A stretch of 43,660 nucleotides of DNA, taken from Candidatus Agathobaculum intestinipullorum. Lineage in GTDB: Bacteria; Bacillota; Clostridia; Oscillospirales; Butyricicoccaceae. This document shows positions 27,241 to 42,866 of this stretch, one piece after another. Every line of letters begins with the position of its first letter. The stretch's first letter is position 1. Made by a program: the position numbers and the translations under genes. The stretch is from positions 1-43,660 of the forward strand of contig DWZQ01000013.1 in the NCBI GenBank assembly GCA_019117485.1, read 5' to 3'. Under the pieces are notes generated by a model. That model was given only the letters and a program-made list of their open reading frames with translations. It was not told the DNA's origin and searched no databases.

Positions 27241-27274
27241 ACAGGTGCACCAAAAACGCAAAGGAGCAAGACGT

Positions 27275-27832
27275 ATGACCGATGAACAACTCGTCCGCCG
27301 GATGCAGCAGGGCGACATGCAGGCGTTCGACGAACTGTATACGCGATACAAGAATGACGCGTACCGCGTTGCTTGCCTGATCACCGGCAACCGTGCGGAC
27401 GGCGAGGATTTGACGCAGGAGGCTTTCGTCACCTGCGTGCGGTCGATCGGGTCGCTCAAGGACGGGGCGAAGTTCCGCCCATGGCTGCTCAGGACGCTCA
27501 CGCGCGCGGCATGGAAGTACTGCCGCAAATCAAAGCGTGAAACGCCGGTCGCGGACTTTTTCGAGACCGGCGAGGGCGAAAGCGCGCTGTCCGCCGTGCT
27601 GCGGACAGACGAGCAGCGGCGACTATATCAGGCGATGTACGCGCTCGACGAAAAACGCCGCACCGTGCTGGTACTGTACTATTTCGACAACCGGCCGGTC
27701 AAAGAGATCGCACGCACGCTGGGCGTGACCGAGGGTACGGTCAAATCCCGCCTGTTTTCCGCCCGCCGCCATCTGCGGCAGGCGCTGACCGAAAAAGAGG
27801 GAAAGCCGGAGGAGGCTGTAACACATGGATGA
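27275..27832 (+). CDS. ECF-family RNA polymerase sigma factor
   Basis: The protein has 185 residues, with AAGGAG before ATG 27275. Region 2 spans about residues 10-75 (MQAFDELYTRYKNDAYRVA; DGEDLTQEAFVTC, the D-L-TQE-F core-binding motif). Region 4 spans about 118-170 (RTVLVLYYFDNRPVKEIA, then LGVTEGTVKSRLFSARRHL, the HTH that reads the -35 element). There is no region 1 or 3, as expected for extracytoplasmic function sigmas. It overlaps the next gene, encoding a membrane-anchored partner, by eight bases, the usual sigma/anti-sigma arrangement. The inducing signal cannot be told from sequence. Confidence 0.93.
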   Translation: MTDEQLVRRMQQGDMQAFDELYTRYKNDAYRVACLITGNRADGEDLTQEAFVTCVRSIGSLKDGAKFRPWLLRTLTRAAWKYCRKSKRETPVADFFETGEGESALSAVLRTDEQRRLYQAMYALDEKRRTVLVLYYFDNRPVKEIARTLGVTEGTVKSRLFSARRHLRQALTEKEGKPEEAVTHG

Positions 27833-28604
27833 GATGAAGATGGATCGAGAGATGCAGGAAATGCTGCACCAGTGCGCACAGGGGCTGGAAGCCCCGGACA
27901 AACTCAAGACCCGCATTGACTTTGCGCTCAAGAGCGGCGAGGCACCGCGCAAGGTGCGCCGCCCGTTTGCCAAACGGCTGGCAGCGGTCGCGCTGGTCGC
28001 GGCGGTAGCCATTACCGGCGCAATGGCGGGGAGCGGCGTTGTGGGCTGGTATTCCAGCACTTGGCTGGATCAGAATTGGACGGATTTTGCGCAGACGGCG
28101 GAATATGTGCAGGAGCATGTTCCGGGTGCAAAATATGTCGAATCCTTTTCCAATGGCTATGTGTTTGCAAAAGGCTATGAGGACACTGTGGACAAACGAG
28201 ACGAAAGCGGCAATACGCTGGGCAGCTTTACTGGAGTGCTGTTGAATTATGAAAAAGCTGGTGCAACATTGACAGTGGAAACAGAGCCCGTGCAGGAAGA
28301 GGGACAGTATGCTTCACCGTATGACGTCGTGCGCATGGTGGGTGATACGCAGGTACACTATCGTGCAATGAAAGCTATCGCGCTGCCGGCAGATGGCAGC
28401 ATCCAGCCAACAGAAGCGGAACAGGCGGCATTTGAGCGTGGCGAAATTAATATTGCCTATGGCTCGTCTGTGCGTGAGGAGAATACCTTTTATCGGGTCT
28501 CGTGGATCGAAGATGCTATTGCATATTCGATCTATACCTTTGATCCGGCTGACTTGGCAGAGGATGATTTCTTCCAGATGGCGCAGGAGATTATCACGTC
28601 CTAA
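27825..28604 (+). CDS. Probable membrane-anchored anti-sigma factor
   Basis: The protein has 259 residues. A cytoplasmic N-terminal part of about 45 residues (MQEMLHQCAQGLEAPDKLKTR) precedes one membrane helix at about 48-70 (RLAAVALVAAVAITGAMAG), and an extracytoplasmic domain of about 185 residues follows. The gene overlaps the ECF sigma gene, so it most likely binds and silences that sigma. The zinc anti-sigma HxxxCxxC signature is missing; only one cysteine lies in the N-terminal part. The outer domain (YVESFSNGYVFAKGYE) resembles DUF4367-type sensor regions only vaguely. From about 28080 the DNA is visibly less GC-rich than the first half of the gene. The role is inferred from context. 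Confidence 0.75.
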   Translation: MDEMKMDREMQEMLHQCAQGLEAPDKLKTRIDFALKSGEAPRKVRRPFAKRLAAVALVAAVAITGAMAGSGVVGWYSSTWLDQNWTDFAQTAEYVQEHVPGAKYVESFSNGYVFAKGYEDTVDKRDESGNTLGSFTGVLLNYEKAGATLTVETEPVQEEGQYASPYDVVRMVGDTQVHYRAMKAIALPADGSIQPTEAEQAAFERGEINIAYGSSVREENTFYRVSWIEDAIAYSIYTFDPADLAEDDFFQMAQEIITS

Positions 28605-28802: not shown

Positions 28803-30440
28803 ATGGAGCTTGCCAAAAATAAAATTTACCGATGCCAGATCATCGACTATACAGCAGACGGCACCGGACTTGCCAAAATCGACGGCCGTGCGGTGTTCGT
28901 GCCGCGCACGGCGGTGGGGGATCAGTGCGATGTGCGTATCACCAAGGTGACCAAAAGTGTGGCGTTCGGGCGGCTGGAAAAGCTGGTCGTGCCGTCAGGT
29001 GTGCGCATCCAGCCTGCCTGCCCGGTTGCGGACAAGTGCGGCGGCTGTTGCTATCAGCACATCACCTACGAGGAGGAGCTGCGTGCCAAGGAGAAAAAGG
29101 TGCGCGACGCGCTCACCCGCATCGGCGGGCTGGACGGCACGGTGCTTGCCGGCATCACGGGCGCGCCGACAACCGAACATTACCGCAACAAGGCGCAGTA
29201 TCCGGTCGGACGGGACGTGGACGGCAATATCGTCACCGGGTTTTACCGGCCGCGCAGCCATGACATTGTGCCGGTCGGGCGGTGCCTGATCCAGTCCGAG
29301 ACCGCCGACCGCATTGCGGCCATTGTGCGGCAGTGGATGCGTGACTTCGACGTGCCGCCATATGATTACCAGACCAAACGGGGGGCGGTGCGGCATATTT
29401 ACGTCCGTGTGGGTGAAAAAAGCGGCGAAAGTCAGTTGACCTTGATCGCGGCGACGCGCAAAATGCCCGCGTTGAGTGAGCTGATTTGTCGCTTGCGGGA
29501 AGCCGAGCCGTCGCTGACCGGCATTTTGATCAACCACAACCAGCGGGGGGATAATGTCATCCTTGGTGACCGCACGGATGTCCTGTGGGGCGAGCCGATG
29601 CTGGAGGATCGGCTGTGCGGGCATTCGTTCCTGCTCTCGCCCGAGGCGTTTTATCAGGTCAATCACGCGCAGGCCGAGCGGCTGTACGAGTGTGCGGTTT
29701 CGTTTGCCGGTCTGACCGGACAGGAAACCGTGCTCGACCTGTATTGCGGCGCGGGTACGATCACACTGACGCTGGCGCCGCACGCCAAAACCGTGATCGG
29801 TGTCGAAATCGTGCCCGAGGCGGTGGAAAATGCGCGACAGAATGCGGCTCGCAACGGTATGGATAACGTCGAGTTCCTGTGTGCGGATGCAGGACAGGCC
29901 GCGCGGCAGTTGGCCGCGCGCGGCGTTGCGCCCGATGTGCTGGTTGTCGATCCACCGCGCAAAGGGCTGGACGAGCAGGCGCGTGACGCGATCCTGAAAA
30001 TGCGGACGCCGCGCGTGGTGTACGTCTCCTGCGACCCGGCGACCCTCGCCCGCGACCTGCGTGAGCTGACCGGCGCAGGGTATGTGATGGAAAAGGCACA
30101 GGCGTTTGATTTGTTCCCGCGAACCGGGCATGTGGAGACGGTAGTACTCTTGTCCAAACTTAACACCAAGCAGCATATCGAAGTGGAGTTGAATCTGGAC
30201 GAGCTGGATTTGACAGCGGCGGAGAGCAAGGCTACCTATGACGAAATCAAAGCATATGTGCTGGAGAAGTATGGTTTGAAGGTATCCAGCCTGTACATCT
30301 CCCAGGTCAAACGGAAATGTGGGCTGAATGTTGGGCCAAACTATAATCTATCGAAGAAGGAAGACGCGAAAGTACCGCAGTGCCCGCCGGAAAAGGAAGC
30401 GGCAATTATGGAGGCGCTGAAGCACTTCGGGATGGTTTAG
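28803..30440 (+). CDS. rlmCD: 23S rRNA (uracil-5-)-methyltransferase RlmCD/RumA with an element-derived C-terminal extension
   Basis: The protein has 545 residues, with AAAAGGGG before ATG 28803. A TRAM domain (about 1-60) precedes a 4Fe-4S cysteine set (CPVADKCGGCCYQH) and a SAM-dependent methyltransferase core: FLLSPEAFYQVN, DLYCGAGTITL, DPPRKG and the catalytic cysteine in VYVSCDPATLARDL. The family normally ends soon after HVETVVLLS (443-451). Here 93 more residues follow (KQHIEVELNLDELDLTAAES ... EKEAAIMEALKHFGMV). That tail is familiar to me from clostridial and streptococcal rumA genes in which an integrative element has replaced the 3' end. It methylates 23S rRNA uridines. The enzyme is certain; the origin of the tail is knowledge-based inference. 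Confidence 0.93.
   Translation: MELAKNKIYRCQIIDYTADGTGLAKIDGRAVFVPRTAVGDQCDVRITKVTKSVAFGRLEKLVVPSGVRIQPACPVADKCGGCCYQHITYEEELRAKEKKVRDALTRIGGLDGTVLAGITGAPTTEHYRNKAQYPVGRDVDGNIVTGFYRPRSHDIVPVGRCLIQSETADRIAAIVRQWMRDFDVPPYDYQTKRGAVRHIYVRVGEKSGESQLTLIAATRKMPALSELICRLREAEPSLTGILINHNQRGDNVILGDRTDVLWGEPMLEDRLCGHSFLLSPEAFYQVNHAQAERLYECAVSFAGLTGQETVLDLYCGAGTITLTLAPHAKTVIGVEIVPEAVENARQNAARNGMDNVEFLCADAGQAARQLAARGVAPDVLVVDPPRKGLDEQARDAILKMRTPRVVYVSCDPATLARDLRELTGAGYVMEKAQAFDLFPRTGHVETVVLLSKLNTKQHIEVELNLDELDLTAAESKATYDEIKAYVLEKYGLKVSSLYISQVKRKCGLNVGPNYNLSKKEDAKVPQCPPEKEAAIMEALKHFGMV
30129..30160. other. Putative integration site (attL-like) at the 3' end of rlmCD/rumA
   Basis: CATGTGGAGACGGTAGTACT (from 30129), encoding HVETVVLL, corresponds to the rumA 3'-end site used by several integrative and conjugative elements (for example in streptococci the CACGTGGAGTGCGTAGT-type core). 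Base composition falls after this point. The second copy of the core would lie beyond the right edge. Confidence 0.5.
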
Positions 30441-30455
30441 CATATAGTAGGACAC

Positions 30456-30494
30456 AAAACACCAGTGTCGGTTTTTGACCGACACTGGTGTTTT
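30456..30494. terminator. Terminator after rlmCD
   Basis: A perfect 17-bp stem (30456-30472 with 30478-30494) closes a 5-base loop, with terminal A- and T-tracts. It separates the methyltransferase from the BREX operon. Confidence 0.9.
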
Positions 30495-30617: not shown

Positions 30618-30836
30618 ATGCGAATTAGTTATAAAAAGCTGTGGCTGCTACTATTAGAGCGAGACATCAGTAAAGCCACGTTACGTACAGATTTGAAATT
30701 GGCTACCGGAACTATGGCTAAGCTGAATAAGGGTGAAGAGGTTGCCTTGAGTGTTCTGATGCGTATTTGTCAGTATTTGCGTTGCGATATTGGAGATATA
30801 TGTTCTGTTATTTTGGAGGAAAAGAGTACATATTAA
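30618..30836 (+). CDS. Small XRE-type HTH regulator of the BREX operon
   Basis: The protein has 72 residues, with AGGGAG 11 bases before ATG 30618. It is a single Cro/C1-like helix-turn-helix of the HTH_26 type: YKKLWLLLLERDISKATLRT, then a recognition-helix region LATGTMAKLNKGEEV and the characteristic LMRICQYLRCDIGDI ending. Such short regulators commonly head restriction and BREX operons and control their level. It is first in the operon, 47 bases before the 988-residue gene. DNA target and sign of control are unknown. Confidence 0.85.
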   Translation: MRISYKKLWLLLLERDISKATLRTDLKLATGTMAKLNKGEEVALSVLMRICQYLRCDIGDICSVILEEKSTY

Positions 30837-30883
30837 ATTTTTCATAGAGAGTGATACAAATACTGATAGAAAAGAGTGGTAAG

Positions 30884-33850
30884 ATGGCGCAAAGAGTACC
30901 TTGGGATATGAGTGAAGCAGTCATTATGTTGAATGCGCTGATCGCCGCTCGTGAGGGAAGGATGTCCCGGAAAGATGCAATTGTAGCTGTGTCTTCAAAA
31001 CTTCGTTCACGTGCGAAGAGAAATGGTATCGAAGTAGACGACATTTTTCGTAACGTAAACGGCATTACGCTACAGATGTCCACGATGGAATACATCCTGA
31101 CTGATGGCGAAAAGGGCATGAAGAAATCCTCCATGCCTAAGCTATTTCAGGATGCGGTTGCCATGTACCAGAATGACAGAGCGACCTACGAAAAAATGCT
31201 GAGGGAGGCAAGGAACGTGTCGGATACCAAATCAATACAAGACCAGTATTTTGCATGGCTGGAAACACAAGTATCTCCGGCGCAACTGTCGGAATTATAT
31301 ATGATATATACTGACATTGAGGACTTTTGCCTGAAGCGCAGCGTAATTAAGAAAAAGCTATTTTCATTGACTAACCTTGCCGATATTCGTAAAGTAATGA
31401 ACACGGTTGATTCCAATAAGGTCTTCCGTTTTACATATAAGAAAAAATTGAGCAAAATGAGCTCTGCAATGCGATTTTACTACCGCTTTGTGAAGGAGCA
31501 TCCTGAGCTGCTGACTCAGGCGGCACCAATGAAGTCTAACCAGACTGCAACCCCTATGGAGACAAAACCTGCAGAACCTTCTCCAGAGTTGATTGGGTAT
31601 GGAGAAACAGCAGCGCCTTCCACTGTTGGCACTGTCGCATACAAGATCGATTTCACCAATATTCAGTCCCTGGCTTTTACTCAGCCGACGGAGTATTCAT
31701 ATTTCGAAGAGGAGCAGGGCAAAGTCAACTTTTGGACGCAATTATATGTTCAAGTCGTCAAGTGCCTGATGGATGATTATCCAGATGTGTTGCGCTCTTA
31801 TATCAACTGCAATATCGATGGACAGAGCCGGTGCGATTTCACTGATGAGGCTGGAATAAGCAGCATGACGGCTCCCAAAAAGGTACAGGATAATTTCTAT
31901 CTGGAAACGAACCTCAGCGCTACAGATATTGTAGGAAAGATAAAAAAGCTGCTTGACCTGTGCAATGTAGATTATGAAAATCTGGAAGTATATTACCAGA
32001 AGCGAAGCTCTACAGCGCCTCAAACAATTTCGACAACAGGAACAGGCAACTGTGCCGATAGCTCAGATGCCGAAAGCAGTAAAGAACAGTTTATAAGCTG
32101 GATGCAGCAGACCGGTTCTGCATTAGGTACTATCCGCAGCTATGTTTCTGCCATCGGACAGTCCAGTAAGGCTGCCAATGAATATGGTGTTTGCGATACG
32201 GATTTGTTCTTAATCGAAGATGCCAATAAGCTACAGCAGCTTTTGGATGAGCTCTTGAAGGTCCCGGTTTTCCGGAATCTAAATGCGCAGCAGCATAACC
32301 GCTTCCGGGCAGCGATATCCAAGCTCGTCGCTTACCGTTCCAGTACAACAGCCCATACCCGGCCAGAAGAGAAACTTCCAGAATTAAAAACCGTTGAGGC
32401 GGTTATAAATCCGCAGTACCTCTCCGAGGAGACTCGGATCCGCTATACGGAGATTCTTGCAGAGCATTTTGGCGAGGATGGCTACCAAACGGGGCGGCCA
32501 ATTTTTCGTGGGCGGTTTAGGCGATTTTATGCGGAAAAGTATGGCTGTCCCCCAGCAGAAACAGATGATCGCATTGATGAAATCATGAGTATCGTCGGGA
32601 CAAAGTGTGATAATAGAGTATTCCCCAAGCAGGATGACAGTCAAAATAACTTGATTATGGAAATTGTGAGTGATATTCTGTCTGCTTTTGATTCTGGCGC
32701 AACGGCCGTCTACATCGAAGCGGTTTATGATAAATACCAGCAGCCGCTTGCAGACTATTTGCACATATACAATCAGGATGCCTTGGCATCGCTATTGATG
32801 GCCCATGCCAACGGAAAATACACTCATCGTTATTCTTTTCTGACGAATAACTGGTCTGGTGCAAATGCCCAGGAGGACTTGCTTCGCATTATGAAGATGT
32901 TCCACCAGCCGCAGGATTATGCTGCAATTCATGAGAAGGCATGGTTTCTTCCTTATGAAAGGACGAAGACCATTCTGGTTACGACAGCCTCCATCGTGAA
33001 GGTTGCAGCTGAGACCTATTTCTATGCACCAAATCTGCCGGTCAGTGCAGATGAGCTAGCATATCTTTCTTCATTGATGAATGAAGAACTGAGCTATCAC
33101 AGTCATATTACGGATGTTCGCCTGATGCAGCTGATTGCAGAAAAATGCCCAAGCATTGCAATCAATACGGATGGATACACCACCTATGGCTTAAGGAATT
33201 GCCTCGGATACATCCTCCGAGATCAGTTCGCTTTTAATGGGCCTATTATTACCCTCAAGGGTAAGGAATTGAGCATGGCAGATGTTTTTACAGAGTTTGC
33301 AAAAGACCACGAGGTGTTGTCCGTTGACGAGCTGTCGGCTCTGAGCGATGAAATGAGCACTGTGATTTACTGGGATTCGGTATTGAGCGAGATGATTCGT
33401 ATCTCCGCCACGGAATTGCTGCGGAAAGACCAGATAAAGTTTGATGTAGAAGCAATAGACGAAATTTTAGACGGAATGTGTCCGGGAGATTATGTTCCAC
33501 TTTCGGAAATAAATCTTTTTCTGTGCTTCCCGAATATCGGCCATCCGTGGAACAGCTATCTGCTGGAGAGCTATCTGTTTGGCTTCAGCAGGAAATTCCG
33601 TTTGCTGCACTCCTCTTTCATCAAAACCGGTGTATACGGTGCAATGGTGCGCAAGGATGCAGATTTTCAGGATTACCGCGCTTTATTGGTGGATGTTCTG
33701 TCGAAATCCAATGCACTGGACTCTACCAAGGATGCTCTGCAATATATTGTCGATAAGGGATACCAGCAGCGAAGACGTTATGAAGGCATCGAGACGGTGG
33801 TTCAGGAGGCCAAGCTGGTAAAAGAACAGAGAGAAAAACAGGAGAAATGA
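30884..33850 (+). CDS. Large BREX-associated protein of unknown function (988 residues)
   Basis: ATG 30884 is chosen because the family-like sequence starts at AQRVPWDMSEAVIML; a GTG at 30851 is possible, and both have weak sites. Residues 1-95 resemble an N-terminal module seen in front of nuclease or defence proteins (W..SEAV.ML..., LRSRAKRNGIEVDDIFRN, NGITLQM). Residues about 405-490 resemble a SAM-like, integrase-N-type helical domain (FISWMQQTGSALGTIRSYVS ... NAQQHNRFRAAISKLVAYR). A similar FRN-x-NGI motif recurs in weaker form near 520-570. The rest (about 580-960) is alpha-helical with winged-helix-like blocks. I see no nuclease, methyltransferase or ATPase motif. It is cotranscribed with brxP 10 bases downstream, so a DNA-recognition or regulatory part of the defence system is plausible. 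Confidence 0.7.
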   Translation: MAQRVPWDMSEAVIMLNALIAAREGRMSRKDAIVAVSSKLRSRAKRNGIEVDDIFRNVNGITLQMSTMEYILTDGEKGMKKSSMPKLFQDAVAMYQNDRATYEKMLREARNVSDTKSIQDQYFAWLETQVSPAQLSELYMIYTDIEDFCLKRSVIKKKLFSLTNLADIRKVMNTVDSNKVFRFTYKKKLSKMSSAMRFYYRFVKEHPELLTQAAPMKSNQTATPMETKPAEPSPELIGYGETAAPSTVGTVAYKIDFTNIQSLAFTQPTEYSYFEEEQGKVNFWTQLYVQVVKCLMDDYPDVLRSYINCNIDGQSRCDFTDEAGISSMTAPKKVQDNFYLETNLSATDIVGKIKKLLDLCNVDYENLEVYYQKRSSTAPQTISTTGTGNCADSSDAESSKEQFISWMQQTGSALGTIRSYVSAIGQSSKAANEYGVCDTDLFLIEDANKLQQLLDELLKVPVFRNLNAQQHNRFRAAISKLVAYRSSTTAHTRPEEKLPELKTVEAVINPQYLSEETRIRYTEILAEHFGEDGYQTGRPIFRGRFRRFYAEKYGCPPAETDDRIDEIMSIVGTKCDNRVFPKQDDSQNNLIMEIVSDILSAFDSGATAVYIEAVYDKYQQPLADYLHIYNQDALASLLMAHANGKYTHRYSFLTNNWSGANAQEDLLRIMKMFHQPQDYAAIHEKAWFLPYERTKTILVTTASIVKVAAETYFYAPNLPVSADELAYLSSLMNEELSYHSHITDVRLMQLIAEKCPSIAINTDGYTTYGLRNCLGYILRDQFAFNGPIITLKGKELSMADVFTEFAKDHEVLSVDELSALSDEMSTVIYWDSVLSEMIRISATELLRKDQIKFDVEAIDEILDGMCPGDYVPLSEINLFLCFPNIGHPWNSYLLESYLFGFSRKFRLLHSSFIKTGVYGAMVRKDADFQDYRALLVDVLSKSNALDSTKDALQYIVDKGYQQRRRYEGIETVVQEAKLVKEQREKQEK

Positions 33851-33860
33851 GGAAACCCTG

Positions 33861-36272
33861 ATGTACCAATATTTATGGGATGAGGAGACAGGAGGATTGC
33901 TTCTGACCACAGAGCAATCGAAGTTCAGCAAGGAACCGCGTCCTGTTTATGCCTCAGAATTGACACTACTGGGATTTGACCAATACTGGTCGTATCCCAA
34001 AGACGACTGCGCTCCGCTCATGTGGGCAGAAGCTAATAACTATATTTATCGCGGCAGAATGGTTGCCAGAACTAAAGGCGGTTCGTACTATTCCAAACCA
34101 GAGATAGTCCTTTTGGATACACCTGAGCCAGATGGAATACCGTTACAATTCGTTGATGTTGAAACAATGACGAAAAAAAACGAAGCCATTTTAGAAACTC
34201 TCGTTCAAGAAACGATTCAGACAGTTTATAATACATATAGGGAATATAAAGATAAAATCGATGTTTTTTATGTTGCTTTCAGTGGTGGAAAGGACAGTGT
34301 TGTAGCGTTAGACATTGTACAGCGTGCGCTTCCTCACGATGATTTTTGGGTTTTGTTTGGAAATACCCGTATGGAATTTCCTGATACGTATGAGCTAGTG
34401 GAACGAATTAAAGCAGACTGCATAAGTGAGGGCATACGGTTCTATCAAGCAGAATCCAAGCTGCTTCCACAAAATACATGGTCTTGCTTTGGGCCACCTT
34501 CAACCAGCAATCGCTGGTGTTGTAGTGTACATAAAACGTCACCACAGATTAATTTGCTCAGGGAGATAACAGGTAAGCGAGATTTTACAGGAATGGCCTT
34601 TACCGGAGTGCGCGCTGAAGAAAGCTTGGCACGAAGCACTTATGATACAGTAAGCAATGGCCAGAAGCACAGTGGTCAAATGAGCTGCCATGCAATACTC
34701 GATTGGACTTCCGCAGAGTTATATTGCTATATCTATGAAAGGCATTTGCACTTGAATGAGGCATATAAAAAGGGAAATATGAGGGTTGGATGTTTAGTTT
34801 GTCCCAATTCAACTGGAAAGCACGAGTATATAAAGCGCTGTTCATATCAGTCTGAAGTGGATTTTTTTCTTAGGAAAATAGCTTCTACGAGCGGGAAAAC
34901 CAATTACTCAGAGGCCGATATGAAAGAGTTCATTGATGGCGGATTTTGGAGAACCCGTAAATCTGGACGTGAGCTTAATCTAGGCCAGGATAAGTTTGAG
35001 GTCATCGGCGGAAGCAATCCGCCTATGATAGATACTTTTGTGACGCATCTCAAATGGCAAAATTGGGGGAAGACAATTGGTGATATAACACAGGTGGCGG
35101 AAGATGAATATACAATTCTGTTTGAAGGAAAATCCTATACTGTCAGAACAGCATTGGGTGAAAGCAAAACGACCTTTATTCTGGAAAACTGTGAGAACTC
35201 CAAGACGGATATTAAATTTCAATCGTTGATGAGAAGTGTAATCATCAAAAGTCTGTACTGCGTGGGATGTGGAGAATGCGAGGCAGAATGCAAACATGAT
35301 TGCATTGACATGAAGGACGGGATAGTGATTAGAGATAACTGTGTACACTGCTACAGATGTCACGATGTCCAAGAGCATTGCTTAAGGTATGCATCGATAC
35401 GAAACAAGATAACGGAGGGGAGAAAAATGGCGGGAATTGATAGGTATTTTACCTTTGGAACGCGGGATGAGTGGCTGGATTCATTCATTCGATATAAGGG
35501 TGGAAAAGAATTCTGGCTTTCTGATGGTGATGGTCAGGTCGCTAATAAGAAAAAAGATGCATTCAAGAATTTTGCGGATGATGCAGGCCTTACAGTCTAC
35601 GACAAAACTGCGGATGGAGACAAGTACACTAAATGCGTGCCGACACCGTTTGCGGATGTAATTATCAGAGAGGGTGCATACAGTCAGACCTCGTGGGCCT
35701 TGATTCTTTGCAATCTGGTCTACACACCTGCGTTTAATTGGTTCGTCACTTCACTTGAATTTGGAATATCATATACACCTGACCTATTGAATTTGATGTT
35801 GACAGATGTGATGGAGAATGATACCAAAGGAAAGGGTAAGCGGAATGTTATTGATTCCCTTAAAATCATAATGGCCAAGACGCCTCTGGGTAAAGATAGA
35901 ATCTTTGCCGACTGCGATGTAGTCGAAAAAGCATCCGCTTCTGGTAGAGAGACGGTAACGCTTAACTCTATTATGAGATGTAGTTGGGCTGAACCAGATG
36001 CCCGTGTCATTCTCTACTCACTTTACAAGTTTGCGGAGAAATGTGGCGGATATTACCAGTTCTCGCTGTCCACGCTGCTGGATGACTCCATAGAGCGTGA
36101 CGGCATTAGTCCGACCAGAATTTTTGGCCTGAACTACGATACGATGGTTCCGATTCTAAATGGTTTGTCCGTAAACTATCCAGACTTCATTTCGGCCAGT
36201 TTCTCTTTGGGACTGGATACTATTAGCTTACGTGAAGGCAAATCCTCTCAGGATGTGTTGGCTATATTCTGA
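33861..36272 (+). CDS. brxP: BrxP: PAPS reductase-like protein with ferredoxin-type Fe-S region and DUF4007-like C-terminus
   Basis: The protein has 803 residues. About residues 100-400 are a PAPS-reductase/DndC-like domain with the PP-loop AFSGGKDS (139-146), then LFGNTRMEFPDTYE, NRWCCSVHK and GCLVCP cysteine motifs. Residues 467-507 hold two cysteine sets, CxxCxxCxxxC (467, 470, 473, 477) and CxxCxxC...C (494, 497, 500, 507), as in 2[4Fe-4S] ferredoxins. About 525-803 is DUF4007-like. DndC uses this fold in DNA phosphorothioation, and BrxP is the marker of type 4 BREX. Sulfur-based DNA marking is therefore a reasonable hypothesis but not shown. It sits between the 988-residue gene and brxC with short gaps. 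Confidence 0.85.
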   Translation: MYQYLWDEETGGLLLTTEQSKFSKEPRPVYASELTLLGFDQYWSYPKDDCAPLMWAEANNYIYRGRMVARTKGGSYYSKPEIVLLDTPEPDGIPLQFVDVETMTKKNEAILETLVQETIQTVYNTYREYKDKIDVFYVAFSGGKDSVVALDIVQRALPHDDFWVLFGNTRMEFPDTYELVERIKADCISEGIRFYQAESKLLPQNTWSCFGPPSTSNRWCCSVHKTSPQINLLREITGKRDFTGMAFTGVRAEESLARSTYDTVSNGQKHSGQMSCHAILDWTSAELYCYIYERHLHLNEAYKKGNMRVGCLVCPNSTGKHEYIKRCSYQSEVDFFLRKIASTSGKTNYSEADMKEFIDGGFWRTRKSGRELNLGQDKFEVIGGSNPPMIDTFVTHLKWQNWGKTIGDITQVAEDEYTILFEGKSYTVRTALGESKTTFILENCENSKTDIKFQSLMRSVIIKSLYCVGCGECEAECKHDCIDMKDGIVIRDNCVHCYRCHDVQEHCLRYASIRNKITEGRKMAGIDRYFTFGTRDEWLDSFIRYKGGKEFWLSDGDGQVANKKKDAFKNFADDAGLTVYDKTADGDKYTKCVPTPFADVIIREGAYSQTSWALILCNLVYTPAFNWFVTSLEFGISYTPDLLNLMLTDVMENDTKGKGKRNVIDSLKIIMAKTPLGKDRIFADCDVVEKASASGRETVTLNSIMRCSWAEPDARVILYSLYKFAEKCGGYYQFSLSTLLDDSIERDGISPTRIFGLNYDTMVPILNGLSVNYPDFISASFSLGLDTISLREGKSSQDVLAIF

Positions 36273-36291: not shown

Positions 36292-39200
36292 ATGAGCAAG
36301 AAAACCTACAAGGATTATTTTAACATTGATCCAAAGTATTATGCGGCGGTTACGGCTGACCTGATAAGATCTGGTGAAGTCAAATGGACTTCATTCTATC
36401 CTCATGAGACCTTTGTCAAGCTGCTGGAGAAAACCCACATCATGCTCTCTGGCAAGGACTCCCGGTCCCTGTGGGTGGAAGGTGCCTACGGTACCGGCAA
36501 ATCCCATGCTGCTCTGACGGTAAAATCTATGCTGGAGGCCAGCGATGACGAGATCCGTGCTTATTTTAAGGATTATGGCCTCCGGGATGACCTTTGCCAG
36601 CAGCTCATTACGGACAAGAGCAACGGCAGATTGATTACCATCCACCGGATTGGCTCTGCGTCTATCCGTTCTGACCAAGACCTGATTCTAGCCTTACAGG
36701 ATAGCATCGCAGCTGCGCTGCAGGAGCATGGCATTACCAATCGTGGTGAAGCATCCCTGAAGGAATCCGCCCTGCGCTGGCTGGAAGACAAAGAGGCAAA
36801 CCGAGTCTACTTTGACAGCCTGATTCAGGAAGATAAGTACATGTGGGATTTCGGCGGCAAGCATGTGAATGAGGTCATCTCTGTGCTGAAGAACTCCGAG
36901 GACGAGGCCGCTGTTTCTAAAATGATGCGCAATATCCTGAAGGTTGCCGAGGACAATGGCATTACGGCCCTGCGTCTGGATATTCCGGCCATGTGCGATT
37001 GGATCAAAAGCATCATTGACGAGAACGACATCTCCGCTATTCTCTTCGTGTGGGACGAGTTTACGGAGTATTTTCAGAACAATCAGAATGCCTTGACTGG
37101 CTTTCAGACCCTTGCAGAAATCAGCGAGTCCCACCCGTTTTATTTCCTTATCGTGACCCACGAAAGCAGTTCTCTCATTCAGGATAAGGATATGCGTAAG
37201 AAGATTCTGAATCGTTTTGTGGGCGATGTAACTGTCCGTATTGAGATGCCGGAGAATATGGCATTTCGGTTGATGGCGCAGGCCATGAAAACTACGGATG
37301 ACCCTGTGCTCCTCCCGGAGTGGACTAAATACAAGGGTGACCTAAATGAAGGGTTAACCAGTGTCCGCAATACCATTATTGCCAGTGCAAAAAAGCACTC
37401 CACAATGGGGCAAAAGACCGTCATTTCTGATACAGAGTTGCAGTCTATCGTTCCAATTCATCCGTATGCAGCGCTGCTGTTGAAACACATGTCAGTGGCA
37501 TTCAATTCCAATGCTCGTAGTATGTTTGACTTCATTATCAGTAATGACATGTCGGATGCAAAAGGTTTCAAGTGGTTTATTAACGAGTATGGTCCTGAGG
37601 AGAGTATAAACCTACTCACCATCGACATGCTCTGGGATTTCTTTACCGGGAAAGACCAGAATGGATTGAATGACGATGTTCGCGTGATTTTGGATTCCTT
37701 CGGTCTGCTGAAAAAGGGTATCCTAACTCCAGACCAGGAGCGAGTGTTTAAAACTGTGCTGCTTCTGGAAGCCATTTCCTTGCGTGTGGGCAACGTGGAG
37801 CTTCTGCGCCCCAACGAGCAAAATATCGATCTGGCCTTTGTGGGTACTGACTGGTCAAAGGGCAAAGCACGTAATATTGCTGCTGGTCTGTGTCAGCAGG
37901 GACTGCTCTTTGAAAAACCCGTAGGCAATGGTCTAAAGGAATACACTGTTGCGAATCGTGACGGCGACATTGGCAAGATTAACAAGCTAAAGGCCGATAT
38001 CCGCAACAGCACAAAAACGCAGGATTTGATTGTTTCTGCCGACCTGATGTCTGCAGTGCAGCTTCCTGTTGCAATCCGTCCCCGTTTTGTGATGGAGGGC
38101 GCAGCTTCCTCTAATTTAACACCAGTCAGCAGCAAGCTGAGTGGACAGAGCAAGCCAAATCGTTTTAAGACTGTGGTAGCTTTTGCTCTGAATGATACAG
38201 AGGCTGCTACCATCAGAAATGCCATTTTAAAAGCAATCGTTCAGCCTTCTAACGAGCTTTTCTATATTGAATGCCTGACACCTATGGGTGATGACCTTTT
38301 GAGCCAGTATGTAGAGAACATGGCATACAGTAAGAATTATGCTCAGAACGACCGTCAGCGTGCAATGGGATTTGAAACGCAAGCGAAAAAGTGCCTGACT
38401 GAATGGAAACAGAGAATTTCTGCGGGTGCTTTTATCCTTTATACGCCTGAGCATAAGAGCGGCACTCGCGTGGCCAATCTTGCCGCATTGCAGGAGGCGC
38501 TGCAGAAACTCAACCACCAGATTTATTTCTGCGGCCTTGAGCAGTTCAATCTGATTGATAACATGTTCGTGAAAGGCCCTCTGGCCCAGGGCGCTGAATG
38601 CGGCATCACAGAGGAGTTGAAGTCCACCTTTAAATCTTCCAATGTGAAAACCAGCCTTGCGACTGCACTAAAGGGTGCATGGAAGGTTGAGCGCTATTGG
38701 GAAGACCCGACGAAAAAGAGCCTGCCAATTGTCCGCATCAAGCAGGAAGTAGAGAAGGTCATAAAAGCTGGATTTGAGAAGGCTTCCGGTCGTATCAGCA
38801 TTCTTTCCATTTATGAGGCGTTGGAAGAGGCGCCTTACGGATTTATGCCCAGCAATGCGACTGCTTTTGTTATGGGCTTTGTGCTGAAAGAATATGCCAC
38901 TGCCGATTATTTCTGGAGCAATGGCCCTTTCAGTGAAAGCATGACACAAGGGAAAATGAAGCAGATGATTGCTAACGCAATCAATCAGAAATTTTCTCCG
39001 TCTTCGAAATATAAAGAAGAATATATCGTTGCTATGAGCGCAAGCCAGCGCTGCTTCCTACAGTGCACATCTGCTGCGTTTCATATTCCGATGTCGCAGT
39101 GTGGCTCTATCGAAAGCGCCCGCGATCAAATACGAATCAAGATGAAAGGCCTTACTTTCCCTATTTGGTGCCTGAAATATATTCTGAACACGGTGCAGTT

Positions 39201-40515
39201 GGAGACACCTGCTGATCAGATTACCACCGTAATTGATGCTTACTGTGGAATCGCCAATACTGCTAACAGTAACAAGGACACAGAGAGCGCTCTTGCAGAC
39301 CAGATTGGTTCCCTTGTCCATGACAATGCCGCCATCACGCGGGACATGGAAAGTCTCCTGACCGATGAGATGTGTCGCAAGGGTATGCTGGCGTATATTG
39401 ATGCTTATCAGGGCGGTGCTCTCCGTCAGCTGGCAAATGAAATTGGCGATGGTGGAGCCTATCTTGACCAGGTAAAACTGAAGTTTAACGCGGATGCCGC
39501 GAACTGGGTATGGAGCTCTGTTACTGCGGACGAGAAAATTTCGGATGTCATTTTGGAGTATCGCATCATTGCCGAAAGCAATAAGAGCCTTCCAAAATGC
39601 ACCAACCTTCGGGATATGGTATTGGAATGGAATAAACGCTCCAACAACATCCGCATGCCGTATGATGTCCTGCGCAAATATACCGGAGACTTGAGCCAGC
39701 TTTTAGTCCATCTTTATTACATGAAGCAGAGCGGCCAACTGCAGGAACAGTATAAGCAACAATTTTATAATGCGCTGATAACGCAACGTGAGGCATTTGA
39801 GCACTTCTATAAAGACCAGTTGCCGTATTTTAAACAGGTTGCGGGCACGTTTGTAGAAGAACTGGATGAGCAGGATGTTGCCGGATTCTGCAATACTCTT
39901 CCTGCTGGTCAGTTTACCAAGTCCAGCACGGAGTATTATCAATACATTGAGAATGCTGTAAGCAACTACAAAAAGAGCATTCGGAGGACTCAGCTGAAGA
40001 ACCTCTGGCTGGAGAAAACCGGAACAAAAGACCCCTCCGATTGGTCTGACCGATATGATACACCGATTCTTTGTATGTTCGATGACACAGAGCGCGGAGA
40101 GGCAAGAACTATCTTTGCCACCATCCTTGCATATGCTGCTTCGGATGCAGATATTACCAAGGCCATCAATTATCTTGAGGCGGCTACGTTCTATGATCGT
40201 TTGAATGACCCGCTGGAGCGAGATCGCTGCTTCATGGAGCGTGTTGTCGGCGATTACGCCGTTATGCTGAAGGATGCGGATTCTATTCGGAAGAGCCTAA
40301 TTGGAAGTATCCCGGACAAGGCGTATAATTGGATAGATAATTCTGCAGTGAAGAATCGGCTGAAAGTACTGGCAGAAAAGCAATACAAACTCAGCGGTTG
40401 TGAGCGTGCACAGGCTGTTATCGATAAGATGGATGCTACTGAACTGCGTCGCTATTTGAATGAGCTCATTGCTGATAATCTTACGGTGGGGATGGAAATT
40501 CTGAAGAATGAATAA
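36292..40515 (+). CDS. brxC: BrxC/PglY-family BREX ATPase
   Basis: The protein has 1407 residues, with AGGAGG before ATG 36292. It has a large P-loop ATPase core: Walker A GAYGTGKS (64-71) and Walker B ILFVWDEF (D255, E256), a sensor-like FYFLIVTHESS, then a long, mostly helical C-terminal region. Length and opening match BrxC/PglY, the AAA+-like motor found in all BREX types and needed for defence and DNA modification. It starts 19 bases after brxP and ends 11 bases before pglZ. Part of the N-terminal third is more GC-rich than the flanking genes, suggesting recombination between alleles. Confidence 0.92.
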   Translation: MSKKTYKDYFNIDPKYYAAVTADLIRSGEVKWTSFYPHETFVKLLEKTHIMLSGKDSRSLWVEGAYGTGKSHAALTVKSMLEASDDEIRAYFKDYGLRDDLCQQLITDKSNGRLITIHRIGSASIRSDQDLILALQDSIAAALQEHGITNRGEASLKESALRWLEDKEANRVYFDSLIQEDKYMWDFGGKHVNEVISVLKNSEDEAAVSKMMRNILKVAEDNGITALRLDIPAMCDWIKSIIDENDISAILFVWDEFTEYFQNNQNALTGFQTLAEISESHPFYFLIVTHESSSLIQDKDMRKKILNRFVGDVTVRIEMPENMAFRLMAQAMKTTDDPVLLPEWTKYKGDLNEGLTSVRNTIIASAKKHSTMGQKTVISDTELQSIVPIHPYAALLLKHMSVAFNSNARSMFDFIISNDMSDAKGFKWFINEYGPEESINLLTIDMLWDFFTGKDQNGLNDDVRVILDSFGLLKKGILTPDQERVFKTVLLLEAISLRVGNVELLRPNEQNIDLAFVGTDWSKGKARNIAAGLCQQGLLFEKPVGNGLKEYTVANRDGDIGKINKLKADIRNSTKTQDLIVSADLMSAVQLPVAIRPRFVMEGAASSNLTPVSSKLSGQSKPNRFKTVVAFALNDTEAATIRNAILKAIVQPSNELFYIECLTPMGDDLLSQYVENMAYSKNYAQNDRQRAMGFETQAKKCLTEWKQRISAGAFILYTPEHKSGTRVANLAALQEALQKLNHQIYFCGLEQFNLIDNMFVKGPLAQGAECGITEELKSTFKSSNVKTSLATALKGAWKVERYWEDPTKKSLPIVRIKQEVEKVIKAGFEKASGRISILSIYEALEEAPYGFMPSNATAFVMGFVLKEYATADYFWSNGPFSESMTQGKMKQMIANAINQKFSPSSKYKEEYIVAMSASQRCFLQCTSAAFHIPMSQCGSIESARDQIRIKMKGLTFPIWCLKYILNTVQLETPADQITTVIDAYCGIANTANSNKDTESALADQIGSLVHDNAAITRDMESLLTDEMCRKGMLAYIDAYQGGALRQLANEIGDGGAYLDQVKLKFNADAANWVWSSVTADEKISDVILEYRIIAESNKSLPKCTNLRDMVLEWNKRSNNIRMPYDVLRKYTGDLSQLLVHLYYMKQSGQLQEQYKQQFYNALITQREAFEHFYKDQLPYFKQVAGTFVEELDEQDVAGFCNTLPAGQFTKSSTEYYQYIENAVSNYKKSIRRTQLKNLWLEKTGTKDPSDWSDRYDTPILCMFDDTERGEARTIFATILAYAASDADITKAINYLEAATFYDRLNDPLERDRCFMERVVGDYAVMLKDADSIRKSLIGSIPDKAYNWIDNSAVKNRLKVLAEKQYKLSGCERAQAVIDKMDATELRRYLNELIADNLTVGMEILKNE

Positions 40516-40526
40516 GGAGGGCATTT

Positions 40527-42866
40527 ATGCGTTGCATTAACACAAGTGAATGTTTCGAGCAAATGAGTGCCTATTTTGACGGAAAAAAGACTGGCTATTT
40601 CTTGTTGGTGAATACGGAGAATTACGATGTTTATCAGGAAATACTCCAACGCCTTGAGGCCGATAGCTGCAAGAGATGTGTTTATATTTCCCAAAATTGC
40701 CTGCCCAACGGTCTGCCTGATGTCGATGCAGCCGTCTCTATTGCAAGCGGTAGTGGAAACTATGCCTTAGTTGGGCTATCGCAGGCTCAGATGCTTCGCA
40801 GCGATAGTGCGTTGGCCGCAAAGCTGGATGAGGTTCTTAGTTACCCTATCAGCGGATATGGCATTGTTCTTCTTGATCATTGTGAACAGACGCTTCAGAA
40901 ATTTATAAATCGTGATATCCGGTTGAAAAAAAGAGTCCTTTTGGTTGACGGAGAGGTTTCGCCGTTGCCACAGATAAAGTTTGCGAAAACTGAAGAAGAG
41001 TGCATTGGATTTAGGCCACTTTCTGATATTCCGAGACTTCTCTCCTATCTTGAAAGATTGACGGATATGCAGCGTCAGAATCACCCTGCTGTGACGGCAC
41101 TTTGCTCGTTTCCTGTTGATATGTTCCGAAACGCTGCTTATTCCGTTACTGCATCTGAAGGCATTTATGAGGCGTTGACCACAAAATATTCAGACATTGC
41201 AGGAGCGACGGAAAAAGCATACGGAACAGATGTGCAGTGGAGCTGGCTTGCTTCTAAAATGTCTGGCAAGAGCAGCTTTTCCGCGTTGGTTTGTGATGAA
41301 TTTGGCGCTACAGCAAATCTGTCGGCGCATCTATCAGATGTTTGGGGATCCGCCGATAAGAAGATGCAGTGGCTCTTGTGGCTGTCATTGAAGTCCTTCG
41401 GCGAGGCCAATAACCACTATCTGACGTTGATACTTGAAAATTGTGATCATGTTGATTCTTTTGAGATGCATGCATATCTAGACTTTGCAGATGTAGATAT
41501 TTCGCATCCGGAGTTTGAGCGGTATTATACAGAGCGAAAGAGGCTGTTGGAGCAGTTGCCGGAGAATCTGTCGCTTATTAAAAAATATTGTGATAAACTG
41601 GGCCGTCACCAAAAGGACGAGGTGTTCTATCTGACCGACAGCAGCGCACAAGAAAAGTACGAATTTGTACGGTGCCTCAGCCTTTATGATTTCACACCGG
41701 AAGAAATTTTTCGTGCAACACGCAGTATGTCTAAATCTCTACACTTATATATGCAGGATTTCGTCTTTGATGCCGTGAACACTAAGTTGCCGGAATCCGA
41801 CAGTAGATTCCGGGGTGATTTGACTACATATTTCCGGGATTACAAACTTCAAAAGCTTACAAATCGTATCTTTCCGGAGTTTCTGAAAAGGGTCAATGCT
41901 TACGCCCAATCACCTCGGCCGAATAATAAATTGCAGCCGAGGAGCAGCATTATTTCCCACATGGATAAGAAGAAGGTACAATGCTTCTTTTTCGATGCAC
42001 TTGGCGTGGAGTACCTTGCTTTTATTATGGCAAAGTGCGAGGAATATGGCTTGGTATCAGAAGTAGCCATAGGCCATTGCGAGCTGCCTTCCATCACAGT
42101 TAAAAACAAAGAGTTTTTGCAGCATTTTGCGGACGGAGACTGGAGAAAAATCGATGACCTTGACGAGATAAAGCATCACAGCCAGGTTTACGATTATCGG
42201 AAATGTGAGTACCCGCTCCATTTATTTGAGGAACTGGATGTAATCGATGAACAACTACGGATGATTCAGTCCATGCTTGTGCAAGGCACGCTGGAGAAAG
42301 CGTTGATTGTAGCCGACCACGGTGCCAGCAGATTGGCAGTGCGTTATGGTCATGAGTTGAATTCTAGCATTGAGCTAGAGGAATCTGGTGAACACAGCGG
42401 ACGATGCTGTCCGGCTGCAGAAGATCCGAATCTGTCGTTTGTTGCTTATGAAGATGGATTTGCTGTTCTTGCAAACTATGAGCGTTTTAAGGGTGGCCGT
42501 CGGGCAAATGTAGAAGTACACGGTGGGGCTTCCCTTGAGGAAGTGGTGGTGCCCATCATCACCCTGACAAAGCGTCCGGACAATATTGAACTTTGCTTTG
42601 TTAATCCTGTCATTACACTAAAGCCGCGTGTTACTCCAGAATTGGTGCTTTATTCCAATATTCCGCTCAGCAAGCCTCGACTGCTCATTGATAACGATTT
42701 CTATGACGGTGAATTTGTAGCGGATAAGAAACATGCAAGATTTGAAATTTCGAAGATTAAGAGGAAAGGCAATTACTCTGCGGAGGTTTATGATGGCGAG
42801 AAAAATATGTCGGTGAAGCTGGAGTTTAAAGTGCAAAAGCAGACCCGCGAAGTAGATTTGTTCTAA
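40527..42866 (+). CDS. pglZ: PglZ, BREX alkaline phosphatase-like protein
   Basis: The protein has 779 residues, with AAGGAGG before ATG 40527. The C-terminal half has the alkaline-phosphatase-superfamily metal sites: FFFDALGVEYL (D490), IVADHGASR (D597, H598) and VEVHGGASLEEVVVP (H665). The N-terminal 450 residues are the variable helical part typical of PglZ. PglZ is the universal BREX protein; its phosphatase-like or nuclease-like role is still debated. It is tightly spaced between brxC and brxL. The family assignment is secure from the three metal motifs and the neighbourhood. Confidence 0.93.
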   Translation: MRCINTSECFEQMSAYFDGKKTGYFLLVNTENYDVYQEILQRLEADSCKRCVYISQNCLPNGLPDVDAAVSIASGSGNYALVGLSQAQMLRSDSALAAKLDEVLSYPISGYGIVLLDHCEQTLQKFINRDIRLKKRVLLVDGEVSPLPQIKFAKTEEECIGFRPLSDIPRLLSYLERLTDMQRQNHPAVTALCSFPVDMFRNAAYSVTASEGIYEALTTKYSDIAGATEKAYGTDVQWSWLASKMSGKSSFSALVCDEFGATANLSAHLSDVWGSADKKMQWLLWLSLKSFGEANNHYLTLILENCDHVDSFEMHAYLDFADVDISHPEFERYYTERKRLLEQLPENLSLIKKYCDKLGRHQKDEVFYLTDSSAQEKYEFVRCLSLYDFTPEEIFRATRSMSKSLHLYMQDFVFDAVNTKLPESDSRFRGDLTTYFRDYKLQKLTNRIFPEFLKRVNAYAQSPRPNNKLQPRSSIISHMDKKKVQCFFFDALGVEYLAFIMAKCEEYGLVSEVAIGHCELPSITVKNKEFLQHFADGDWRKIDDLDEIKHHSQVYDYRKCEYPLHLFEELDVIDEQLRMIQSMLVQGTLEKALIVADHGASRLAVRYGHELNSSIELEESGEHSGRCCPAAEDPNLSFVAYEDGFAVLANYERFKGGRRANVEVHGGASLEEVVVPIITLTKRPDNIELCFVNPVITLKPRVTPELVLYSNIPLSKPRLLIDNDFYDGEFVADKKHARFEISKIKRKGNYSAEVYDGEKNMSVKLEFKVQKQTREVDLF

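Follow-up and report, generated by a model that had tools for sequence, protein, structure and literature searches.

A 43,660-nucleotide stretch of DNA from Candidatus Agathobaculum intestinipullorum (assembly GCA_019117485.1, contig DWZQ01000013.1, positions 1 to 43,660; hereafter the window) was analyzed for a gene encoding a 988-residue protein without a named family, here called X. The gene belongs to a type-4 bacteriophage exclusion (BREX) operon that closes the window, in which a 72-residue helix-turn-helix (HTH) open reading frame (ORF), X, brxP, brxC, pglZ and brxL follow one another on the + strand until the contig, 43,660 bases long, ends inside brxL. BrxP, BrxC, a type-4 PglZ, BrxL and a DUF4007/SspB-like domain, by which type-4 BREX is recognized, are all present at the locus. 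X was placed between a regulator and brxP in a preliminary description of the same sequence, and this holds, with the HTH ORF upstream and brxP starting 10 bases downstream (33861). The HTH protein was detected by tblastn in 10 of the 38 loci searched, with X downstream each time, and is 98.6% identical in a related locus, L003.

The frame of X is open from an ATG, and an alternative in-frame GTG at 30851 would lengthen the product to 999 residues; the L003 relative starts at the ATG of X and is 85% identical across the first 405 residues. Ratios of nonsynonymous to synonymous substitution rates (dN/dS) against L003 were 0.15 for the head domain, 0.10 for residues 115-225, 0.26 for residues 226-380 and 0.21 for the C-module. 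Given its length and dN/dS of 0.10-0.26 over these four segments, the frame is not a chance one. X is under purifying selection, though mostly less constrained than the core (BrxC 0.08, PglZ 0.14, BrxL 0.02), and from its spacing and strand is predicted to be co-transcribed with the operon. No model in Pfam, NCBIfam or PADLOC matched X at E 0.1, PHROGs gave one weak match (E 0.19), and PDB profile searches stayed at chance level (best E 0.18 for X, 0.3 for the head, 0.51 for the C-module). No catalytic domain was recognized in X. A real, large protein with neither a named family nor a catalytic motif had been described, and these claims stand. In alignments, X is modular, with a head domain, two SAM-like domains separated by an optional alpha/beta block, and a C-terminal module (C-module) common to the family.

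Genomes were sampled from the order (394) and the phylum (398) of the window, and only its own phylum was sampled in this way. A brxP match was termed canonical at E <1e-90 in the order sample and E <1e-200 in the phylum sample, cut-offs that were set after the matches had been seen. In the order sample, the X query matched 16 of 394 genomes at E 0.001, the window's own included, and the BrxP profile matched 20 of 394 at E 1e-60, comprising 13 canonical matches and 7 weaker ones in Ssp-type loci. X was present in 11 of the 13 canonical-brxP genomes (again including the window's) and in 5 of 381 others (Fisher p 4e-16), the others being all genomes without a canonical brxP, including the 7 with an Ssp-type brxP. 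Among the 11, one genome holds a truncated remnant (G171) and in another X is spread over two contig ends that were not joined (G322). The two canonical genomes without X have, respectively, a contig that starts 199 bases before brxP (G394) and a 299-residue gene with no significant match (G317). Outside the canonical genomes, the matches consisted of the C-module in Pbe loci (G065, G153), the alpha/beta block only, in another locus (G364), the head only, beside a PAPS-reductase-like gene and dnd genes (G035), and a match at a contig end (G130). This co-occurrence survey, which the preliminary description had proposed, supports the linkage to BREX, and X was not found to be confined to unrelated contexts. 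Neither head nor C-module was found in any of nine Ssp-type loci, seven from the order sample and two from the phylum sample (L118, L119); these were assigned by layout, without PADLOC, and in one (L068) only SspD- and SspB-like genes were seen.

In the phylum sample, the C-module profile (A5, E 1e-5) matched 7 of 15 canonical-brxP genomes vs 4 of 383 others (G412, G673, G727, G799). The head (A4) and C-module profiles were built partly on order-sample loci and contain none from the phylum sample or IMG/VR; L042 is included in A5, yet was matched already with X alone as query. Besides the window, 16 canonical type-4 loci were inspected in the phylum sample, two of them in G581 and one, in G692, with a broken brxP. 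The C-module was clear in six (L105, L106, L107, L108, L111, L114) and weak in two (L113, E 1.3e-4; L116, E 1.9e-3). A sigma-70 gene stood in the place of X in L109 and L117, a remnant of one was recognized by eye in L115, and nothing was recognizable there in five (L102, L103, L104, L110, L112). Across ten X-less type-4 loci, the slot before brxP held nothing recognizable in seven, a sigma-70 gene in two and a remnant in one. Both sigma-70 genes (L109:11630-13108, -; L117:6978-8420, +) are complete, with regions 1.1, 1.2, 2, 3 and 4, and lie 27-28 bases before brxP. X shares the strand of brxP and precedes it, as a rule by no more than 60 bases and often by 10 or fewer or with an overlap (ORF starts were chosen mechanically).

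A BrxP scan of viral contigs in IMG/VR gave 206 relatives, for 79 of which the locus was listed, and among the best 23 of these 79, which were inspected, 9 were BREX loci or ended right after brxP and 14 were short phage-borne brxP-like genes. Six of the nine carry a clear C-module (L133-L138), two a weak one (L148 and L152, the latter with a clear head) and one none (L154). A full X was also found on a phage-labelled fecal contig (L076); none was found on a second phage-labelled contig (L077, with 1.3 kb before brxP) or on a Methanosphaera plasmid (L075). Viral-contig scans with X alone or with the L076 relative gave no match, and the X head matched five loci, four of which lie on contigs identified before as BREX-4 and the fifth at the end of a contig. 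Plasmid searches with the window's X, its head and two relatives gave no match.

Two further observations concern brxP on these contigs. The 14 phage contigs (L139-L147, L149-L151, L153, L155) carry BrxP-like genes of up to 578 residues that match BrxP only to about residue 527, hence without the SspB-like tail; two stand in tandem in 6 of the 14, no BREX gene was recognized beside them, and in L142 they adjoin an endolysin and a DNA methyltransferase gene. They possibly represent phage counter-marking. At L133:7156-9969, brxP is interrupted by two tandem genes that agree in length and start and look transposase-like by eye.

A BrxP tree with 45 rows contained one group (support 99/99) of 19 full-X loci, one contig-edge locus and four phage copies, so that 19 of the 23 X-bearing loci in the tree fall in a single supported clade. 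The C-module loci outside it (L039, L040, L105, L106) lie near X-less loci, and nine X-less loci (seven with nothing in the slot, two with a sigma-70 gene or remnant) group together with weaker support (86/96). The label of X presence changed 4 times over the tree vs 15.4 in shuffles. Because most X-bearing loci form one supported clade, X marks a subtype of type-4 BREX, as had been suggested; its distribution over this part of type-4 BREX involves losses, replacements or gains.

Four head residues (S37, R41, R56, G60) are invariant among the 10 sequences of alignment A4, and the motif FRNVNGITLQM, previously read as an N-terminal defence module, does lie in this conserved domain. A restriction-enzyme N-domain, suggested by a similar motif in ScoMcrA-like enzymes, was considered for the head and set aside, as Pfam and PDB profiles gave no match. 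Since the head is a separate gene between the C-module gene and brxP in L039 (243 residues) and L105 (238 residues), X resembles a fusion of components that are found separately as well. The integrase-N-like helical domain of the preliminary description is upheld through relatives, and in two copies: the single SAM-like copy of L135 matches the integrase SAM model PF13102 (22.5 bits, cut-off 22.3), whereas the window's own two copies had no significant Pfam match. X as a tyrosine recombinase was rejected, there being no catalytic-domain match and the SAM-like domains being supported via L135 and hhalign only. The name alpha/beta for residues 246-380 is a guess at their fold. For residues 246-375 there is a match (E 4.9e-16) to a protein encoded in another locus, L038.

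That L038 protein (994 residues, L038:7839-10823) belongs to a multi-gene locus, perhaps a further defence system, in which a chaperone-like gene was recognized by eye; HIRAN was matched by 1 of 11 proteins scanned, by eye this one.

Coordinates of the type-4 BREX operon and of the modules of X in the window
Feature	Position	Strand	Basis or remark
72-residue HTH regulator-like ORF	30618..30836	+	the regulator of the preliminary description
X, 988-residue BREX-4 protein without named family	30884..33850	+	relatives 5' of brxP, same strand
X head domain, residues 1-112, FRNxNGI motif	30884..31219	+	alignment A4
X first SAM-like domain, residues 115-228	31226..31567	+	hhalign with second copy: probability 97.1, E 7.8e-11
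X alpha/beta block (fold name a guess), residues 246-380, FYLETNLSA motif, optional in relatives	31619..32023	+	alignment A6 (L134, L152)
X second SAM-like domain, residues 394-492	32063..32359	+	L135 equivalent matches PF13102
X C-module, residues 515-988, common part of family	32426..33847	+	profile A5 matches BREX-4 and Pbe loci
brxP: PAPS-reductase, Fe-S-like region, SspB/DUF4007-like tail	33861..36272	+	PADLOC BrxP, E 3e-231
brxC	36292..40515	+	ATG 36292 aligned with L003; open from GTG 36232; PADLOC BrxC, E 3.7e-235
pglZ, type 4	40527..42866	+	NF033445 BREX_PglZ_4, 444 bits, cut-off 140
brxL, cut by contig end	42882..43658	+	first 259 residues match PADLOC BrxL, E 1.9e-105

In relatives of X, other modules precede the C-module, namely two alpha-CTD stretches (1.8e-27) and sigma region 4 in L138, alpha-CTD and sigma region 4 in L039, sigma region 4 in L105 and L106 (1.1e-10 in the latter), and HARE-HTH in the weak relative L113 (3.4e-7) and in L031 (3.7e-5, just under cut-off). 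The pattern TRERxRQ is kept in the sigma-4 helices of seven relatives. When the Pbe-type relative L216 was used as the query of a plasmid search, 23 records matched over about 44 to 78 residues, RpoD being matched with 48% identity over 44 residues, and the annotated records among the matches listed (20 of 23) were sigma factors. The window's X is not itself a sigma-70 factor, as it had no Pfam match to sigma regions 2, 3 or 4. Conserved positions of the C-module are mostly hydrophobic or aromatic (A5), no invariant residue pattern suggesting catalysis was seen in the X family, and hhalign found no significant internal repeat in the C-module, which may have a tandem winged-helix fold.

The C-module is not limited to BREX, so that the association proposed earlier holds for X as a tie to type-4 BREX and not as an exclusive one. 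It lies directly before pbeA in L042 and L043 (order sample) and in L214, L215 and L216 (phylum sample), and in all five the gene order after it is PbeA, then PbeC (PADLOC). L042 also encodes DndB, DndC and DndD; no dnd genes were recognized by eye in the inspected stretches of L214-L216. Outside BREX and without a Pbe fit, the C-module occurs as a stand-alone 506-residue gene (L213) and at a contig end (L212). When 348 genomes were scanned for PbeA, 25 matches were obtained, and 17 of them were inspected, namely L215, L216 and 15 new ones. Besides L215 and L216, a weaker X relative precedes pbeA in only 2 of the 15 (L244, L245), and X is therefore an optional partner in Pbe loci too.

When the BrxP alignment was compared with an alignment of nine SspB-like proteins, the BrxP tail was matched (probability 95.5, E 1.3e-8), and Pfam DUF4007 did not match BrxP at E 0.1. 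BrxP, DUF4007 and BrxC have been equated with SspD, SspB and SspC (PMC12839542), SspABCD mark DNA (PMC8092258), and in type 1 both DNA and BrxB-PglZ are bound by BrxC, which acts as a hub (PMC13326643). As SspABCD mark DNA and all nine Ssp-type loci are without X, marking of the Ssp kind does not need X. DNA of the window and L003 is 88% identical before the body of brxP and 94% after it; BrxP residues 51-700 are only 20-68% identical per 50-residue step and the ends match. Overall, BrxP is 53% identical between the two loci and the segments of X are 81-91% identical. The BrxP body, as a cassette that would carry marking specificity, seems to have been swapped between otherwise near-identical operons (33861-36272 and L003:12986-15316) with X unmoved, a natural experiment on that specificity. 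In a comparison of evolutionary distances over 16 loci, the X C-module tracked BrxC best (r 0.82, partial 0.37), and its partial correlations with BrxP, PglZ and BrxL were about 0.

On this basis we favor, at about even confidence, the view that in one branch of type-4 BREX X is a modular subunit for DNA recognition, without catalytic activity, that would dock on BrxC and serve interference. BrxP with its SspB-like tail and BrxC would sulfur-mark self DNA, as SspD, SspB and SspC do, and X would take part in interference. DNA would be read by the exchangeable modules at its N-terminus (head, paired integrase-type SAM-like domains and alpha/beta block), a task that alpha-CTD, sigma region 4 or HARE-HTH would take over in relatives, and the conserved C-module would connect these readers with the machinery in common, the AAA+ hub BrxC being its most likely docking site. 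We infer DNA binding by the window's X, docking and the interference role because Ssp loci are without X, BrxP has its own tail and was itself exchanged, the C-module distances track BrxC, and BrxC is a hub. The X family is probably a DNA-recognition part of both type-4 BREX and another defence system, Pbe. The specificity or sensing subunit envisaged in the preliminary description is thereby kept as a DNA-recognition role and made unlikely as a setter of marking specificity, since the SspB/DUF4007-like tail belongs to BrxP and BrxP, not X, was exchanged; taken as a whole, that interpretation is partly supported.

Several points weigh against the favored role. The window's X had no significant Pfam DNA-binding match. 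X is missing from about half of the phylum-sample type-4 loci, so that type-4 function in general does not depend on it. An X relative is lacking in 13 of the 15 newly inspected Pbe regions, and X is lacking in several Ssp-type loci where a PbeA-like gene was recognized by eye (for L119, the PbeA scan matched as well). The distance correlation is weak evidence, coming from 16 related loci and the C-module only. The place of X right after a small regulator and its sigma-type relatives also fit a regulator, which is the main rival because of these sigma-like relatives and the sigma-70 genes in X-less loci. X would then control expression of the BREX operon as a large transcription factor bound to the promoter region, perhaps together with RNA polymerase. 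The alpha-CTD and sigma region 4 of relatives, the small HTH gene directly before X and the complete sigma-70 gene before brxP in two X-less loci agree with this; but the window's X had no sigma or alpha-CTD match in Pfam, the operon already has its HTH regulator, the C-module recurs before pbeA, beside effector genes, and of the two sigma-70 loci brxP is whole in L109 and broken into pieces in L117. We regard a regulator as unlikely.

X would also lie close to brxP, and share a brxP clade in most of its loci, if it were part of the sulfur-marking complex and helped BrxP and BrxC to find host DNA sites. This is quite unlikely, given the absence of X from the nine Ssp-type loci, the SspB-like tail of BrxP itself, the divergence of BrxP beside a conserved X in L003, and the C-module in Pbe loci L214-L216, where no dnd genes were recognized. 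A bolder proposal, which we consider improbable, is that the slot before brxP holds readers of promoters or transcription complexes, filled by X, by its relatives with alpha-CTD or sigma region 4, or by a complete sigma-70 factor; these would steer interference to transcribed phage DNA with the sulfur mark as a veto, and the C-module would do likewise for some Pbe systems. Restriction of X to part of type-4 BREX and its occurrence with another system would suit an accessory gene with an anti-phage activity of its own that travels with BREX, but its position 5' of brxP is fixed rather than variable and no effector domain was recognized, which leaves this very improbable.

Upstream of the operon lies rlmD (28803-30440), an rRNA methyltransferase gene (TIGR00479) and not a regulator. 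A perfect 17-base inverted repeat with a 5-base loop, terminator-like, lies between the two (30456-30494); it was read from the sequence directly and is absent from the list of a scan. Only about the last 103 codons of rlmD precede the BREX operon in L003 (L003:9246-9554), with recombinase-like genes (by eye) upstream, and an element seems to have entered rlmD before the operon there. Farther upstream in the window (27245-28604), an ECF sigma factor gene precedes a gene with weak resemblance to anti-sigma factors (E 9e-4, under cut-off), a pair apparently unrelated to BREX.

Type 4 is a little-studied branch of BREX. X is a concrete candidate for the step at which phage DNA is recognized, as a conserved extra subunit with exchangeable putative DNA-binding modules that is common to some Pbe loci. 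Should interference depend on X and marking proceed without it, type-4 BREX would have two separable activities. Current models of type-4 BREX and Pbe would then miss a component in part of the loci, and defence-finding tools should carry a model of X.

Among known systems, type-4 BREX has been described with five major components and a cysteine desulfurase, the latter in only 56% of taxa (PMC12839542). The window agrees in having BrxP, with its SspB/DUF4007-like tail, BrxC, PglZ and BrxL in that order, and differs in X; in the portions seen of that paper, X is not among the components named and no X-like protein is described. X is likewise unmentioned in the portions seen of PMC10853773, PMC6459918 and PMC11931770, and the type-4 BREX study of Yuan et al. 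(2024, bioRxiv; cited in PMC11931770) may describe it. PglW of type-2 BREX has an alpha-CTD-like domain followed by winged helices and a sensor in its C-terminal half (PMC12839542), and some X relatives likewise place alpha-CTD modules before the conserved C-module; X, however, had no Pfam match to the NERD nuclease or kinase, and when the X-family proteins of the window, L042 and L216 were scanned with PADLOC (L216 to E 1e-8), only that of L042 matched PglW, over 68 residues (E 0.0027). SspB/DUF4007 subunits, with which papers group BrxA and DndG, share with X the proposed class of role, non-catalytic DNA recognition, and were rejected as its relatives on sequence, since hhalign comparisons of the C-module with SspB-like proteins and with BrxP detected no relation (probability <1). 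X is neither PbeB nor PbeD, since the archaeal proteins have only 66 and 152 residues (PMC6459918). The window's genome had no PbeA match and so differs from PbeABCD, a sulfur-dependent replication block; the two are alike in that X relatives with the C-module stand directly before pbeA in some loci.

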